DNA from: a virus | DNA: 47,332 nucleotides | IMG/VR virus record: IMGVR_UViG_3300037963_002696 | Location: 1-47,332 of that record | Direction: 5' to 3' (one strand) | In this document: positions 22,740-43,662 of the stretch, piece by piece | How positions within the stretch are numbered: position 1 is the stretch's first letter | How the letters are laid out: every line of letters begins with the position of its first letter | The notes under the pieces: generated by a model | The model's database searches: none | What the model was told of the DNA's origin: nothing | What the model saw: only the letters and a program-made list of their open reading frames with translations | Position numbers and translations under genes: made by a program

Positions 22740-22824
22740 TGGTGCCACAATGACGGAATCGAACCTCATAGCGTTAGCGCCGGATTTACAGTCCGGTGAG
22801 CGTCCCAGCGCTCGGTATTGTGGC
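22740..22824 (-). tRNA. tRNA-Tyr (GTA anticodon), with a bulged T-stem
   Basis: 85-base tRNA on the minus strand. Acceptor stem GCCACAA/TTGTGGC is perfect, followed by ACCA, so CCA is encoded. Anticodon stem CCGGA/TCCGG holds loop CTGTAAA with anticodon GTA (22787-22789). A long variable region fits class II tRNA-Tyr. The T-loop TTCGATT is normal, but the T-stem TGAGG pairs with CCGTCA only with one extra base bulged out. The D-arm uses GAGCG/CGCTC. The insertion may weaken it, so it could be a decaying copy. Confidence 0.8.
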
Positions 22825-24064: not shown

Positions 24065-24088
24065 AAAAAAGCCCGCGCTGTGGCGGGC
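24065..24088 (-). terminator. Terminator closing the pentamer-repeat/RAMP transcription unit
   Basis: Minus-strand stem GCCCGC / GCGGGC with a six-base loop and a run of six Ts, ten bases after the stop of the helical partner gene. Confidence 0.85.
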
Positions 24089-24097
24089 TGCGGCTGG

Positions 24098-24559
24098 TCA
24101 TTTGCTAGGCGAGAAAAGAGCGAAAACATCACGCTTCTGGCGTTTTATCATTTGACCTATTCCAGACAACTTAACCTCGGTGTCAGTATGCTGCCTGCGC
24201 TGCTCGTCCGATAGCTCTGCAACCCTAGTATGCGTGAGTATTTTACTTCCCTTTTGCAATCCTTTTGCCACCTGGGCCATCGCCTGCTCGGCAGCATAAC
24301 GCGCCTGTTCGCTGGGCGGGACAATCCTATAACCTTGGCCCCTAACGTTTTGCAGTGCAACTTGCCGCTCTACTAGCAAATAATCCCTCAGAGCGTCCAC
24401 GCGGCTCATGGCCTGCCACTGCTTTTCCTGTACTTCATCCAAATGGCGCGGTTTTTCTAATTGCAGGGCATATGCTAGCCAGTCATGGGATAGCAAATCT
24501 CCATCTCGGTGATTAGTCCTGTCGTACTCATTGATTGCGTGCTCCAGCCATGCGTCCAT
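24098..24559 (-). CDS. Helical partner protein of the RAMP-like gene
   Basis: 153-residue, mostly helical protein. The middle NVRGQGYRIVPPSEQARYAA looks like a winged-helix wing or a short beta hairpin, followed by a long basic helical end (LSGIGQMIKRQKRDVFALF). Its ATG overlaps the stop of the RAMP-like gene by one base (TAATG), so the two are probably made in a fixed ratio and act together. It may bind nucleic acid. I do not recognise a characterised family. The gene is followed at once by a terminator. Confidence 0.7.
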   Translation of the reverse strand: MDAWLEHAINEYDRTNHRDGDLLSHDWLAYALQLEKPRHLDEVQEKQWQAMSRVDALRDYLLVERQVALQNVRGQGYRIVPPSEQARYAAEQAMAQVAKGLQKGSKILTHTRVAELSDEQRRQHTDTEVKLSGIGQMIKRQKRDVFALFSPSK

Positions 24560-25128
24560 TACTTCACCTCCTCAACGTCGAATCGGCCAAATTTTGGGCG
24601 GTAGTCACCAATGCCGCAGTACATTCCTGCTTCTTCCAGCATTTGCTTAACCTCAGAGCGGTTAATAAGTGCCGGGTCATACATTATAGTGAACTGGCAG
24701 GCCCACTGCTTGAAGATAGGACGATAGCGCATTAAGCGGCTGGTGGTGACTTTTACCGAACGGGCGTCATACATGCCAGCGGCCCACATTCCCTCAAGGT
24801 CACGCGGGCCTTTGTATTCAACCGCAGCCTCAGGCTCTACCACTTCGATAGCCCGCTTGAAAACCTTGCCCAGGCGACGCAGCTTGGCCGACTCATATAA
24901 AGCGCCTTCGATAACCTTGTCCGGTATGCAAGGCCCTAGATCATCTGTTCGATACATGCCGCCCGCCCATTCGCTTTTGGCGATAGCTTCATGATCTTCG
25001 TCTGTTTTTTTACGCTTACCTGTCAGCTCCTTATGCGCTTTTGTGGCAGGGTGAAGCGGATCAGCGAACTTGTCGCTGTGCATGAGTAGCGGGCGGTTGC
25101 CTGTAATTCGTACTTTGATAATTTCCAT
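24559..25128 (-). CDS. RAMP/Cas7-like protein (putative RNA-binding subunit)
   Basis: 189-residue protein; start MEIIKVRITG chosen for GAGAAGG six bases upstream. Features that resemble the RAMP (Cas7-type) fold: first strand IKVRITGNRPLLMHS, the segment GPCIPDKVIEGALYESAKLR that parallels the IPGSSLKGALR motif of Cas7/Csm3-type proteins, and a C-terminal glycine-rich GIGDYRPKFGRF. RRPIF-type residues (RLMRYRPIFKQW) add basic surface. No CRISPR array or other Cas gene is present. It lies immediately downstream of the pentamer-repeat modules on the same transcript. RNA binding is inferred; I know similar proteins only as phage hypotheticals. Confidence 0.6.
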   Translation of the reverse strand: MEIIKVRITGNRPLLMHSDKFADPLHPATKAHKELTGKRKKTDEDHEAIAKSEWAGGMYRTDDLGPCIPDKVIEGALYESAKLRRLGKVFKRAIEVVEPEAAVEYKGPRDLEGMWAAGMYDARSVKVTTSRLMRYRPIFKQWACQFTIMYDPALINRSEVKQMLEEAGMYCGIGDYRPKFGRFDVEEVK

Positions 25129-25164
25129 GATATGCCTTCTCTGAGTTGGTGTTGGTGCTTGCAC

Positions 25165-25502
25165 CGGAGGGCACCCGAACCGGATGCCAACCGCTGTAAA
25201 CAGCCCTTGCGTTGCCTTTCCTCGCCAGAGCAGGCCTCGCCACGCCCGGCCTCACCCTTCCACTTGGTGGCTACCCACCGCCTAACACCTGAAACAGATG
25301 CTAGACGCTTTGCAGCCCTTGCCTTGCCAAGCCCGGCTATGCCACTCCATGTCCAGCCATGCCGCGCCACGCCAAACCTCGCCTTGTGGCAGCTATCGCC
25401 ACCCGGATCAACACTGTTACCAATGTATCACCGGCTGATTACAGCCCTTGCGTTGCCCGTCCGAGCCCGGCCTAGCCAAGTCACGCCTTGCCCCGCCATG
25501 CG
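25165..25502 (-). repeat. Three modules of a degenerate pentanucleotide (GGCNN) repeat
   Basis: On the minus strand three blocks of five-base units with consensus GGCNN: C 25448-25502 (11 units), B 25319-25383 (13 units) and A 25207-25261 (11 units); about two thirds of units keep GGC exactly. Each block ends GGCAA-(C/G)GCAA-GGGCTG, followed by a shared stretch (AGCG..T.GCATC.G.TTC.GGTG) and a stem-loop such as GTGGC/GCCAC (25386-25402) or GGTGG/CCACC (25266-25279). Module length is 112-129 bases. Five-base phasing rules out protein coding; a frame that runs through it is Arg/Gly/Lys-rich and meaningless. Confidence 0.85.
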
Positions 25503-25506
25503 GGCA

Positions 25507-25606
25507 CAAAAAAGCTGCTCATTTAACCGGGTCAGAGAAGGGCTTGGGCACCCACCGGATAAAATAAGCAGCTCATTTATTCCCAATTTCTTAGCGGCTC
25601 TGACCC
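25507..25606 (-). promoter_or_regulatory. Attenuator-like leader of the pentamer-repeat unit
   Basis: Two interleaved inverted repeats on the minus strand: GGGTCAGAG (25606-25598) with CTCTGACCC (25537-25529), nine pairs, and AGCTGCTTATTT (25573-25562) with AAATGAGCAGCT (25524-25513), eleven of twelve pairs, the latter followed by six Ts. The order is c, d, c', d', so forming one stem disturbs the other. This resembles a terminator/antiterminator switch upstream of the repeat modules. Confidence 0.55.
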
Positions 25607-25620
25607 CGCGTTATGTGTTC

Positions 25621-25649
25621 AATTTAGCGCGTCTATGTTCGCGCGTCAA
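25621..25649 (-). promoter_or_regulatory. Promoter of the pentamer-repeat/RAMP unit
   Basis: Minus strand TTGACG (five of six matches), 17-base spacer, TAAATT (four of six). The spacer region holds a direct repeat of GACGCGC and an inverted repeat GCGCG/CGCGC, possible operator sites. It lies after the capsid terminator, so the unit is transcribed independently. Confidence 0.6.
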
Positions 25650-30950: not shown

Positions 30951-30977
30951 GCAAGTGCACACGAATAGGAGATGAAC

Positions 30978-31691
30978 ATGAAAATTTGCACAAAATGCGG
31001 AGCAGAAAAAGACTTTGACCAATTTTACAAGCAGGCGAAAGGTAAGGGTTATAGGGGTGCGTGCAAGTCATGCCTAGATGAAGCAAGGAGGAAGAGGTAC
31101 AAAAAATCATACAAAGGTGGCATGGGGCACAACCAAGGCCGTGTTGAGCTTCCTAGCGCCGATTTGTTAAACGAGCTTTTTATGATCGACGGCCCCAACC
31201 TTGTCAGAAAAGTTGCGCGAGGAAGGTGTACAGCAGGCGAAGTTGTTGGAAAAGTTAGAAAAGACGGATACTCAAGAGTTTGGGTTGAAGGCGCTCATGC
31301 GCTTGTGCACCGCGTGGTTTGGAAAATGCGCACCGGCCAAGAGCCGCCTAAATATTTAGATCACATCAACGGTGATAGGTCTGATAATCGGTTTGAAAAC
31401 CTCAGAGAAGCAGACCATTTTATGAATATGTGGAACAGGTCTGAACACAAGCTAAACACCAGCGGATTTACAGGAATAAGATGGCACGATTATGAATCAA
31501 ATAGATCACGTCCATCATGGGTGGTGAAGCTAGGCTTCGAGGGAAAAGTTATACACGTTGGCTACTTTTCAGACATTAAAGATGCGCTGCGTGCTTTTGA
31601 AAAAGCCGTAATTGAAAATCACGGCGATTTTGGTAAAAGAAAAATAGAGCACAACAGAAAAATGGCAAAAGCAATGGGGATTGATTTTTAG
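30978..31691 (+). CDS. HNH homing endonuclease with AP2-like DNA-binding domain
   Basis: 237-residue protein; start MKICTKCG chosen for AGGAG seven bases upstream. Order: N-terminal zinc motif (CTKCG ... CKSC, residues 3-40); HNH core around LVHRVVWKMRTG and YLDHINGDRSDNRFENLRE (about 110-150); AP2-like beta sheet SGFTGIRWHDYESN through HVGYFSDIKDALRAFEKAV (about 165-215). Such genes cut unoccupied sites and spread. It lies opposite to the surrounding structural genes, overlaps the MuF 3' end by four bases, and is AT-rich compared with them, signs of recent insertion. Confidence 0.92.
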   Translation: MKICTKCGAEKDFDQFYKQAKGKGYRGACKSCLDEARRKRYKKSYKGGMGHNQGRVELPSADLLNELFMIDGPNLVRKVARGRCTAGEVVGKVRKDGYSRVWVEGAHALVHRVVWKMRTGQEPPKYLDHINGDRSDNRFENLREADHFMNMWNRSEHKLNTSGFTGIRWHDYESNRSRPSWVVKLGFEGKVIHVGYFSDIKDALRAFEKAVIENHGDFGKRKIEHNRKMAKAMGIDF

Positions 31692-35682: not shown

Positions 35683-37080
35683 CTAACGCCGTTTTTTCAG
35701 TAGCACGGCGGGGCCGCTAACATTGCCGCCTAACATATCTGAAAGCGCATCCATCATTGGATCAACCGTATCGTCGTGCTTGGCATTAGGAAAAGAGCTG
35801 GTTTCTGCCAAAAGCTCAGACAGCCACGGGGCGTCTTGTGGCAAGTACACATTACCGGATTGGACTAACGGGGCCGCATCCATCGCCCTGGTGATTTTGT
35901 CGCGGTCTCGCTGTATATCCACCACTGGCACCCCTTCGCGCTTTAGCGTTTGTATTAGCCCGGTGCCAGAAACCTTATCCTCAACCTTCATTGACCGCAA
36001 AAAACCCGCATCCCGAATGGCATTGTGCTTGTTCCAGAATGCACGGGCATGCGTTAACAGCTCAGGGGCTTCCCACTTTCCTCGGATCATATCAATTAGA
36101 TACGCTTGGCCGGATTTTGACTTACCCCAGCACTGAAAAACGCTGTAGTCGTTATGCTCTTTTGTCTTTTGAGCCGTGTCTGCGTATATGCCGCGCCACT
36201 CAATTTGCGGTAGACGTTGATAATACTGCCACCAGGCATCTTTGAATATGCCGCCACCAATCGGTGCCGGGCGCTGCATATATTGGCCTGCGAAGCGATA
36301 GGCGTCTGAGCTTTCCATGCGGCGCAAGTCCTCTAACGGGAACTGCTCAGGCCAGAATGACGTATCCGCATCATTGATAGCGGGAATGTTCAAGTGCTCC
36401 CAATGCTCGCCATTACCGCCGTTAAGCAAGTACCCGGATAAATCCTCTTCATGCAGCCGCTGCATGATAACGATGATAGGTGTGTCCGGGCTGTTTTTCC
36501 GGCTTTCCATTGTTGTGCTAAACCAGTCCAGCACGTTTTGGCGCATCGTGTCACTATTGCCTTCCCCGGCTTTGTGCGGATCGTCAATTATGATTGCCCC
36601 GCCAAAGTGGTCGCGCATTTTACCCGCTCCAAAGCCAGTTATGCTCCCTTCCGCACCAGTGGCGTAAACAACCCCGCCCTCCATAGTTCTAAATTCGTCT
36701 TTCGCATTAGAGTCGTTTTGAAATGCAGGCCTGCCAAATATATTGGCATGCATTTCGTGCTGCATGATTGAACGAACATTATAGGTGTTATTTGTTGCCA
36801 GCCTTTTTGAATAGCTAGCATGAATAAATTCGCTATCAGGAAAATTCCCCATACACCAAGCTATAAAATTAATGACGGCTAACTCTGTCTTTCCAGACCT
36901 TGGCGGTATATTGATTATTAACCGCTTGGTCTTTCCAATAACAACCTTCTCCAATGCTGAGCATATAGCATCTTGGTGCCAATTATGCTTTAAATTTGCC
37001 CCCTTCCTGGCTTTAAACATAACCTTAGTGTATGCCAAAAGGTCAGACCTGCATTCTGCAATATCATCAGCGCTCAACAT
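35683..37080 (-). CDS. terL: Terminase large subunit
   Basis: 465-residue packaging motor. ATPase part: Walker A PPRSGKTELAVI near residue 60, Walker B GGAIIIDDPHK near 165. Nuclease part: GIYADTAQKTKEHNDYSVF and the late acidic HDDTVDPMMDALSDM. The start at ATG (MLSADD) overlaps the GIY-YIG stop by seven bases; a GTG twelve bases upstream is possible. It cuts concatemers and pumps DNA. The terminase genes are split by the GIY-YIG gene. Confidence 0.95.
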   Translation of the reverse strand: MLSADDIAECRSDLLAYTKVMFKARKGANLKHNWHQDAICSALEKVVIGKTKRLIINIPPRSGKTELAVINFIAWCMGNFPDSEFIHASYSKRLATNNTYNVRSIMQHEMHANIFGRPAFQNDSNAKDEFRTMEGGVVYATGAEGSITGFGAGKMRDHFGGAIIIDDPHKAGEGNSDTMRQNVLDWFSTTMESRKNSPDTPIIVIMQRLHEEDLSGYLLNGGNGEHWEHLNIPAINDADTSFWPEQFPLEDLRRMESSDAYRFAGQYMQRPAPIGGGIFKDAWWQYYQRLPQIEWRGIYADTAQKTKEHNDYSVFQCWGKSKSGQAYLIDMIRGKWEAPELLTHARAFWNKHNAIRDAGFLRSMKVEDKVSGTGLIQTLKREGVPVVDIQRDRDKITRAMDAAPLVQSGNVYLPQDAPWLSELLAETSSFPNAKHDDTVDPMMDALSDMLGGNVSGPAVLLKKRR

Positions 37081-37787
37081 GACAGCTTCCACCTGTATCC
37101 GTATGCTGTGTAATCTTCTCTTTTTGTTGCCCGGATTATTTTTGAATGGTTAGCTTTCGGGTATTTGCCTTGCGACCTAACCCACTGTACAGCGTCTGCT
37201 ATTGCTTCAAACTGCTCACCTGTGTCTACGCAGGTTACCTTCCTAGCCCTTGCCTTTCTAAGAGACGCGACGTGCTCCGGCGTTTTTTTAACTCCTCGCT
37301 GCCTTGCACCAGTAGCCTCTCTTACCTCCGGCCTTGCCATTGCTTCTTTTATTTTTTCAATTCGACTAGCACGAACCTCAGGGTTTGACCATGCGTTCCT
37401 CAGTCCCTCTTTGTTTTTTTCAGACATGGGCAACCCTTTCAGTCTTTGAGACATCTTCATCCTTGTCGATTCAACGAATACGCCAGCGTCTCCACCGTCT
37501 GTCAGATTGTATCCAGATGGCGACATAGTATTAAATGACTTTATCCAATAGCGCTCTCTCGAGTTCATTTCCTCGAAGCTTGAACATTGCTCAACTAGCT
37601 CAACCGAAAAGCAGTTAGCACCATGCTTGCGGATGGCAGAATAAAGGGCCGAGCAATTGCCGCTATTTTTGCGAGAATGCCATAAGTGATTTGCAAACCT
37701 GTTTTGGTAGCCGCGAGTTGTCACTCCGACATATTTCTTGCCGTTCTTGCTGTTCGTTATTACATAGACTTCGTATGTTTTTTTCAT
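37074..37787 (-). CDS. GIY-YIG homing endonuclease
   Basis: 237-residue protein starting MKKTYEVYVITN. GIY-YIG domain: YVITNSKNGKKYVGVTT, RFANHLWHSRKNSGNC, SRERYWIKSFNT and GYNLTDGGD (residues 5-100); then a modular Arg/Lys-rich DNA-binding part with repeats like those of I-TevI relatives (MSEKNKEGLRNAWSNPEV, KTPEHVASLRKARARKV) and a C-terminal VTCVDTGEQFEAIADAVQWV helix-turn-helix-like unit. It sits between terS and terL. AT-rich relative to its neighbours. Probably mobile. Confidence 0.93.
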   Translation of the reverse strand: MKKTYEVYVITNSKNGKKYVGVTTRGYQNRFANHLWHSRKNSGNCSALYSAIRKHGANCFSVELVEQCSSFEEMNSRERYWIKSFNTMSPSGYNLTDGGDAGVFVESTRMKMSQRLKGLPMSEKNKEGLRNAWSNPEVRASRIEKIKEAMARPEVREATGARQRGVKKTPEHVASLRKARARKVTCVDTGEQFEAIADAVQWVRSQGKYPKANHSKIIRATKREDYTAYGYRWKLSC

Positions 37788-37813
37788 AAAAAAAGCCACC
37801 TGTGCAGTGGCTT
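37788..37813 (-). terminator. Terminator upstream of the GIY-YIG gene, overlapping its ribosome site
   Basis: Minus-strand stem AAGCCAC / GTGGCTT followed by TTTTTTT and then at once the ATG. AGGTGG, spanning loop and 3' arm, is the only ribosome-site candidate, with a spacing of eight. Thus folding of the hairpin should hide it, as in hairpin-controlled homing endonucleases. Confidence 0.85.
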
Positions 37814-42736: not shown

Positions 42737-43432
42737 TTATATCAATCTCCCGTTTTCCTTTGCCCAATCCTCTGGCGTCTTGGATGCCTTTTTTAAATTG
42801 CACTGAGGGCATAGTATCTGTATGTTGTCGGCGGAATTGCTGCCGCCAAGGCTTATAGGCATAATGTGGTCTATATGAAATTCAGATTCACAGCAAGCCA
42901 TGCAGTTTGCACACTTTTTTTTCTGCAACCGCATTATTCTATTCACATCATTCTCAGTGTAGTGTGAATTGCTTTCATTTCTTCTGGCCCTTCTTTTTGC
43001 GCCATAAGACCTAATCTTGATCAGGTTTTTCTTTTTCCACTTGCGGATGGCCGCGTTCATGTAATCCCTGTTATTTTCGGCTCTGACCCTGTTTTTCTGT
43101 TTGAGGCACTCCCTGCATTTTCCATCTGAAGCCCTTCTGTATGCAATGTGGCCTCGAACACAGGGCTTTCCGGTATAACAGTCAACCAGGCCAAGCAATC
43201 TTGCATCGGATGCAGAAAATATCCCAGTAGAAAACCGCTTGATGATTCCAAGCGCGGCCTTATTTTTCTCGCGCTCATTTTGAAGCGCGTTGGCGCATGC
43301 CATGCATGTTCTATTTCTTGTGTTTCTTTCGTCAATGTGCCCGTTCTTACACGGCTCTCCTGTGAAAAACCTGCGCAACCCTAAGCGCATCGCCACTGGC
43401 CGACTTATTATGTGCAAGCAATGATGCGCCAT
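42737..43432 (-). CDS. HNH endonuclease with tandem zinc knuckles
   Basis: 231-residue protein; ATG overlaps the HTH stop (TGATG), with GGAGGGG upstream. Two N-terminal zinc motifs of the form C..GH...C..C (CKNGHIDERN...CMAC and CVRGHIAYRR...CREC), a basic linker, then a classical HNH core CANCMACCESEFHIDHIMP...NIQILCPQCNLKK. Probably a homing endonuclease inserted between a regulator and the primase gene. AT-rich relative to them. Confidence 0.9.
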   Translation of the reverse strand: MAHHCLHIISRPVAMRLGLRRFFTGEPCKNGHIDERNTRNRTCMACANALQNEREKNKAALGIIKRFSTGIFSASDARLLGLVDCYTGKPCVRGHIAYRRASDGKCRECLKQKNRVRAENNRDYMNAAIRKWKKKNLIKIRSYGAKRRARRNESNSHYTENDVNRIMRLQKKKCANCMACCESEFHIDHIMPISLGGSNSADNIQILCPQCNLKKASKTPEDWAKENGRLI

Positions 43433-43662
43433 CACTTACCCCTCCGCGTATCTTCCATCCGCGCCAAGCGAAACATCTTGGCCTCTAATGCAGGCTGGCA
43501 CATCGCAAAGCGCCACACTGCCGCTTTTTCATCACTCGATAGCACGCCACCCTTGTTTAGATGGCGATACAGCCCAAAGTAGCTAACGCCGGATTGCGCC
43601 GCCATTAGCGTCAATGGGTAGCCTTGCTCTTTCATAAATTGCATCATTTCTTTAGTGGTCAT
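43432..43662 (-). CDS. Small HTH regulator (Cro-like)
   Basis: 76-residue protein starting MTTKEMMQFM, with perfect AGGAGG five bases upstream; longer starts overlap the control region. Helix-turn-helix at residues about 18-40 (LTLMAAQSGVSYFGLYRHLN). It lies next to the divergent control region with a palindromic operator and is first in the leftward operon, so it probably controls the early switch between blocks. A lytic-phage regulator is more likely than a lysogeny repressor as no integrase is present. Confidence 0.75.
   Translation of the reverse strand: MTTKEMMQFMKEQGYPLTLMAAQSGVSYFGLYRHLNKGGVLSSDEKAAVWRFAMCQPALEAKMFRLARMEDTRRGK

Follow-up and report, generated by a model that had tools for sequence, protein, structure and literature searches.

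What is the unit of five-base repeats and two overlapping genes that lies on the minus strand of an uncultivated virus? The DNA under study, hereafter the window, is the 47,332-nucleotide stretch of IMG/VR virus record IMGVR_UViG_3300037963_002696. The first-pass annotation had proposed that the repeats form an RNA bound along its length by several copies of a RAMP-like protein, and had known of no described system of this type. The latter statement is superseded by VIPR, which was presented in a preprint of April-June 2026, first out in April 2026, with the PDB entry 36pp (PMC13142463). VIPR is composed of Vipr, an ancestral RAMP protein of about 20 kD, vap accessory genes and vrRNAs, each vrRNA having 9-16 YNNGG units with a constant GGY, hypervariable NN letters and a structured 3' tail (PMC13142463). 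The vrRNAs recognise double-stranded DNA via NN with one skipped base, and the system represses rival phages, prophages and satellites (PMC13142463). We propose, with a probability of about 93%, that the window unit is a VIPR locus with three guide RNAs that would be coated by the RAMP protein, read through their NN letters and used to silence rivals.

Architecture of the unit

The unit is located on the minus strand between the major capsid gene (DUF6260, 26717-25707) and a gp49/66-type gene, and comprises a leader, three repeat tracts that each carry a tail, two genes of 189 and 153 codons, and a terminator-like hairpin (Table 1). The RAMP-like gene and its overlapping partner are placed as had been described, and they share one base. 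The promoter and the end terminator that had been read at the two borders are both present as motifs, but neither exceeds chance: the promoter match is not above the shuffled-sequence expectation of the consensus scan, and the count of terminator-like sites in the region is not above that of shuffles. Elsewhere in the window, a phage-borne tRNA-Tyr with anticodon GTA occurs at 22740-22824 (minus), and three ORFs (30972-31691, plus; 37074-37799, minus; 42737-43435, minus) resemble free-standing homing-type (HNH/GIY-like) endonucleases when their translations are judged by eye.

Table 1. Features of the unit in window coordinates.
Feature	Position	Strand	Details or basis
Possible sigma-70 promoter, TTGACG-17-TAAATT	25621..25649	-	9/12 consensus
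Leader: 5' hairpin and long terminator-like hairpin ending in T6	25508..25612	-	conserved in L003, L005, L014
vrRNA 1 repeat tract, 11 units	25448..25502	-	NN = AT GG AA GT TT TA CG TC CG AA AA
vrRNA 1 tail, three stems	25386..25447	-	covariation over 23 tails
vrRNA 2 repeat tract, 13-14 units	25319..25388	-	NN = (AA) GA TT GT GC AT TG AT GT AT CG TT AA AA
vrRNA 2 tail, first stem atypical	25266..25318	-	tail covariation
vrRNA 3 repeat tract, 11-12 units	25207..25266	-	NN = (GT) AG GA CG GT GA CT CT GA AA AA AA
vrRNA 3 tail, three stems	25154..25206	-	tail covariation
vipr gene, RAMP-fold protein, 189 aa (+ stop), P0001, phrog_4652	24559..25128	-	homology and fold
Accessory gene, 153 aa, P0002, phrog_5926, homologue of SUSP1 vap1	24098..24559	-	homology
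Intrinsic terminator-like hairpin closing the unit	24070..24089	-	7-pair stem, then T5

The three modules of GGCNN units, counted before as 11, 13 and 11 with a common end, were confirmed. Throughout all three tracts GGC is constant and two letters are free in five-base phase, apart from deviating units, GACTT, GGACG and GCTCT among them, and each tract finishes with (G/C)GCAA GGGCTG. Tract 2 spans 25383-25319 with 13 units, or 14 if CACAA is counted, and tract 3 spans 25261-25207 with 11 units, or 12 if CAAGT is counted. The array detector scored the tracts at 28, 37 and 28, against a threshold of 14 that shuffled sequence passes 0.06 times per 47 kb strand. Within ±1.5 kb of vipr, period 5 scored 30/33 where the maximum of 100 shuffles was 25, and periods 4, 6, 7 and 8 scored 19-21.

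The stem-loop noted after each tract proved to be a structured tail. When 23 tails were compared over 21 pairs, 90.4% of the cells were paired and 15 pairs showed double-sided changes, the compensatory changes including G-U pairs, whereas sliding the partners by 1-3 columns reduced pairing to 33-56%. Shuffle counts in this test overstate significance for related sequences, so the argument rests on the slid controls.

Relation of the two proteins to Vipr and its accessory protein

P0001 aligned with the Vipr protein of Escherichia phage SUSP1 from end to end, with 42% identity and 63% similarity over 190 columns. Its family profile had a single match in the PDB, namely 36pp ('SUSP1 Vipr protein', six chains; E = 4.7e-64), and its AlphaFold2 model (pLDDT 90.8) showed a RAMP-type fold, with Csm3 and other Cas7-type subunits as the best Foldseek matches (E 1.6e-5, TM 0.41-0.56). 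P0002 was 24% identical to vap1, which follows vipr in SUSP1 (E 5e-14 in a single comparison). No entry of Pfam, NCBIfam or PADLOC matched either protein. The N-terminal half of P0002 is predicted to be winged-helix-like, with long helices in addition, on fold matches that are weak (E above 0.1). In Gordonia phage MakoManhole the neighbouring gene carries a DNA binding annotation, and DNA binding is predicted for type II accessory proteins (PMC13142463); the winged-helix-like prediction agrees with both.

Two kinds of altered vipr were seen among homologous loci. In L016 (3850-4452) the Vipr homologue is devoid of its C-terminal part and its end resembles the C-terminal sequence of the accessory protein, which would fit a fusion of vipr and vap by deletion. 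In L014 and L015 (from 5001 each) the vipr frame is broken (119 and 111 codons) with the arrays intact, which is either decay or sequencing error.

Compared with the published description of VIPR, the window unit has a small RAMP homologue of 189 aa, unit numbers (11, 13-14 and 11-12) inside the range of 9-16, a vap homologue beside vipr and a structured 3' tail, the latter judged by its three stems. The closest characterised relative is SUSP1, which is type II, and vap is homologous; judged from these sequences, the locus probably falls with SUSP1 and P. fulva in type II. As for CRISPR-Cas, no cas gene was present in the searched neighbours and PADLOC gave no match for P0001 or P0002. For SUSP1 and P. 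fulva the preprint demonstrates transcription, the ribonucleoprotein, binding to DNA and repression (PMC13142463). The idea of an RNA bound by several RAMP copies is borne out there, considering that SUSP1 Vipr co-purifies with five-base-repeat RNAs (PMC13142463) and that the 36pp structure has six chains.

Phased arrays accompany vipr homologues

The search with P0001 yielded 19 viral loci, 4 genomic loci, 132 phage records and 8 plasmid records. In 36 of the 36 loci inspected, a phased five-base array stands within 1.5 kb of the vipr homologue, and periods 4, 6, 7 and 8 never beat period 5. These loci come from phages, prophages, plasmids and MAGs; actinophages are among the carriers, as are a Vibrio phage, a Nostoc plasmid and plasmids of Azospirillum and Bradyrhizobium. 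The loci are partly non-independent (for example L006/L007/L033 and L009/L034); in L036 and L078 the array score exceeds the best shuffle by a narrow margin. Homologues without repeats and relatives that lose the five-base phase, either of which would have counted against the earlier reading, were thus not encountered among them. Most loci have GGC as the constant triplet, whereas Felixounavirus and some others have GGT; L017/L018 have AGC, the Nostoc plasmid GTC and phiHSIC GCA.

Several of these loci have features of their own. In L017 and L018 the unit AGCNN replaces GGCNN, with arrays on both sides of the Vipr homologue, and the uninterrupted arrays of L018 have 35 and 29 units, above the 9-16 stated for VIPR. 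The Nostoc plasmid (L085) and Listonella phage phiHSIC (L086) carry distant homologues with 30-40% identity in the matched stretches and array triplets of GTC/GTT or GCA; in the Nostoc plasmid an HNH endonuclease gene comes next.

Variation of NN was evident in the sister phage L003, which shares 65-91% nucleotide identity with the window in matched blocks. Its tails are 96% identical to those of the window, whereas the NN letters, aligned from the 3' end, are only 32% identical. Near-identical tails with unrelated guides in two sister phages point to guides being exchanged or rewritten quickly. A nucleotide search of phage records with the unit and the left half of the window gave no match.

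Reading of the NN letters in homologous loci

We examined the published code on homologous loci with well-sampled hosts, decoding their guides with a one-base skip. A guide of a P. juntendi prophage (L034), decoded over nine of its units, matched seven viral contigs in this way. In five of them, 22-23 of the 24 letters fell in the same phage gene (phrog_12894, antisense) with differing skipped bases, while the other two were chance matches (19/24). Among 299 Pseudomonas genomes, the same guide matched six with no more than 2 mismatches, and its reversed control matched 0. Guides of L033 and L010, which had been used in no search, fell in the same contig region with 18/18 and 18-20/20 letters. 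When all guides were compared with all loci at up to 2 mismatches, 30 matches were found at skip 1 and 0 at skip 0 or 2. These 30 include contigs fetched with the L034 guide and two weak matches of window guide 3 (L030, L031), and count one guide twice (L009 and L034), so that the unselected evidence among them is given by the L033 and L010 guides.

Sites of the three Pseudomonas prophage guides (L010, L033, L034) lie within a stretch of about 1 kb in one prophage region in L042 (2691-3668), L044 and L068, one of them in phrog_12894, a function-unassigned gene of the targeted prophage region. In agreement with this, the preprint describes many vrRNAs that are directed at a single prophage locus (PMC13142463). 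The published one-base-skip code is replicated on homologous loci of closer relatives, and it gains independent support in that unused guides from other prophages fall on the same target region. The suggestion that NN could carry information, left as one of two options before, is thereby answered for SUSP1, which reads NN with a one-base skip, and for these homologues.

Targets of the window guides and alternative readings

Guides 1 and 2 of the window had no matches in IMG/VR beyond chance level. The first ten units of guide 3 matched with 20/20 letters both in RecT (antisense; L025/L027/L028) and in the DUF2213 head protease (L026/L029/L030/L031); in the latter the skipped base falls on the wobble position of the codon. 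However, a permuted control with the guide 3 units in reversed order gave three nine-unit matches. Because permuted unit order also matches, we do not claim a target for guide 3, and consider it rather unlikely, with about one chance in four, that RecT or the DUF2213 head protease is a true one. Against 369 Gammaproteobacteria genomes, none of guides 1-3 scored above its own reversed control. The window guides are thus without a target clearly above controls.

This outcome would speak for a locus that is VIPR by descent but whose RNAs regulate the phage's own genes or replication instead of rival elements. We regard this as improbable, since no site with up to 5 mismatches to guides 1-3 was present in the 47 kb window, and the guides of homologues point to prophages, as the preprint also reports (PMC13142463).

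Still less credit is due to a repeat RNA that is only a scaffold coated by Vipr, its NN letters merely free to vary. Although the near-maximal variability of NN (entropy of 3.85 of 4 bits over the pooled guides) would suit such a scaffold, silencing in SUSP1 is lost when the NN pairing is disturbed (PMC13142463). The scaffold is already contradicted in homologues, because their NN strings match DNA (22-24/24, or 17-20 of 18-20 letters) at exactly one skip, with zero matches at skips 0 and 2.

A similarly slight chance is given to phased GGCNN tracts that act as DNA, as a protein-binding cluster (operator or iteron) with no transcribed RNA, for which one could invoke the weak promoter call and the fact that repeats upstream of genes are often operators. 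The tails fold as RNA with compensatory changes that include G-U pairs, the arrays lie on the coding strand of vipr whether upstream or downstream of it, and homologous arrays are transcribed and RNA-bound (PMC13142463), all of which argue against such DNA sites.

The leader as a possible switch

The leader had been described as having alternative stems, and these are present. About 100 nt long, it is nearly identical in four loci (the window, L003, L005 and L014), even though L005 and L014 have different DNA on its upstream side. Both stems are kept through paired changes between two groups of loci. The loop of the 5' hairpin, GGUCAGAG (25605-25598), is complementary to CUCUGACC (25537-25530), which lies in the loop of the long hairpin. 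The alternative folds have energies of about -26 vs -27 to -31 kcal/mol, and the fold energy is unexceptional by itself (z -1.5). Rfam gave no match, the leader included, at gathering thresholds and sub-threshold noise only at a loose setting, and a nucleotide search of phage and plasmid records with the leader gave no match.

Because the loops are complementary and the stems change together, the leader may have three states, in which either the terminator forms, or the 5' stem excludes the terminator, or both form with a loop-loop contact. From its sequence, the element looks like an attenuator ahead of the guide array. We tentatively raise the possibility that it is a regulatory RNA switching the VIPR of this sub-clade on and off, through terminator vs antiterminator or through the loop-loop contact, and that perhaps free Vipr, guide RNA or a rival phage is the trigger. 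The main text of the preprint describes no such leader element (PMC13142463). If the leader is a switch, the locus would be a regulated VIPR variant and, judged by that main text, the first case of regulation for VIPR.

Proposed working of the locus

As to the expression, activity and target of the window locus, we infer the following. The minus strand would be transcribed, perhaps under control of the leader, to give three vrRNAs and the mRNA of Vipr and the accessory protein. Several Vipr copies would coat the repeat tract and hold the constant GGC of each unit unpaired, and the NN dinucleotides would pair with target DNA that has the form NNxNNxNN. Once bound, the complex would keep a competing phage, prophage or satellite of the same host from being transcribed, and the winged-helix-like accessory protein may strengthen the block.

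Comparison with known systems

VIPR is known as a kind, while this uncultivated member, its guides and possibly its leader are new. The VIPR of SUSP1 (NC_028808 28031-29061) shares with the window a homologous Vipr, an accessory gene directly downstream, tracts of NN plus a GG-pyrimidine triplet, a conserved structured tail and about 11-14 units per guide. In the window all three guides precede the gene, whereas SUSP1 has one upstream and three downstream; the triplet is almost always GGC in the window and GGT in SUSP1, the tail sequences differ, and a terminator-like leader precedes the first guide only in the window. Closer to the window are the Pseudomonas loci L033, L034, L009, L010 and L015, which presumably correspond to the preprint's P. 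fulva clade and in which Vipr is 56-60% identical where the frame is intact and the three-stem tail, the upstream arrays and the vipr/vap overlap are the same. Unlike the window, they have three to six guides, findable prophage targets and no such leader.

The Cas7-type proteins of CRISPR Class 1 (Csm3 of type III-A and the type VII Cas7) resemble VIPR in their RAMP fold, in coating guide RNA with multiple copies and in the periodic interruption of pairing. The window differs from CRISPR Class 1 in that it has no CRISPR array, spacers or cas genes and its guide letters are non-contiguous, with a period of five bases in contrast with the six of the Cas7-type systems. VIPR is a candidate ancestor of the CRISPR RAMP proteins, one that reads DNA with a gapped code.
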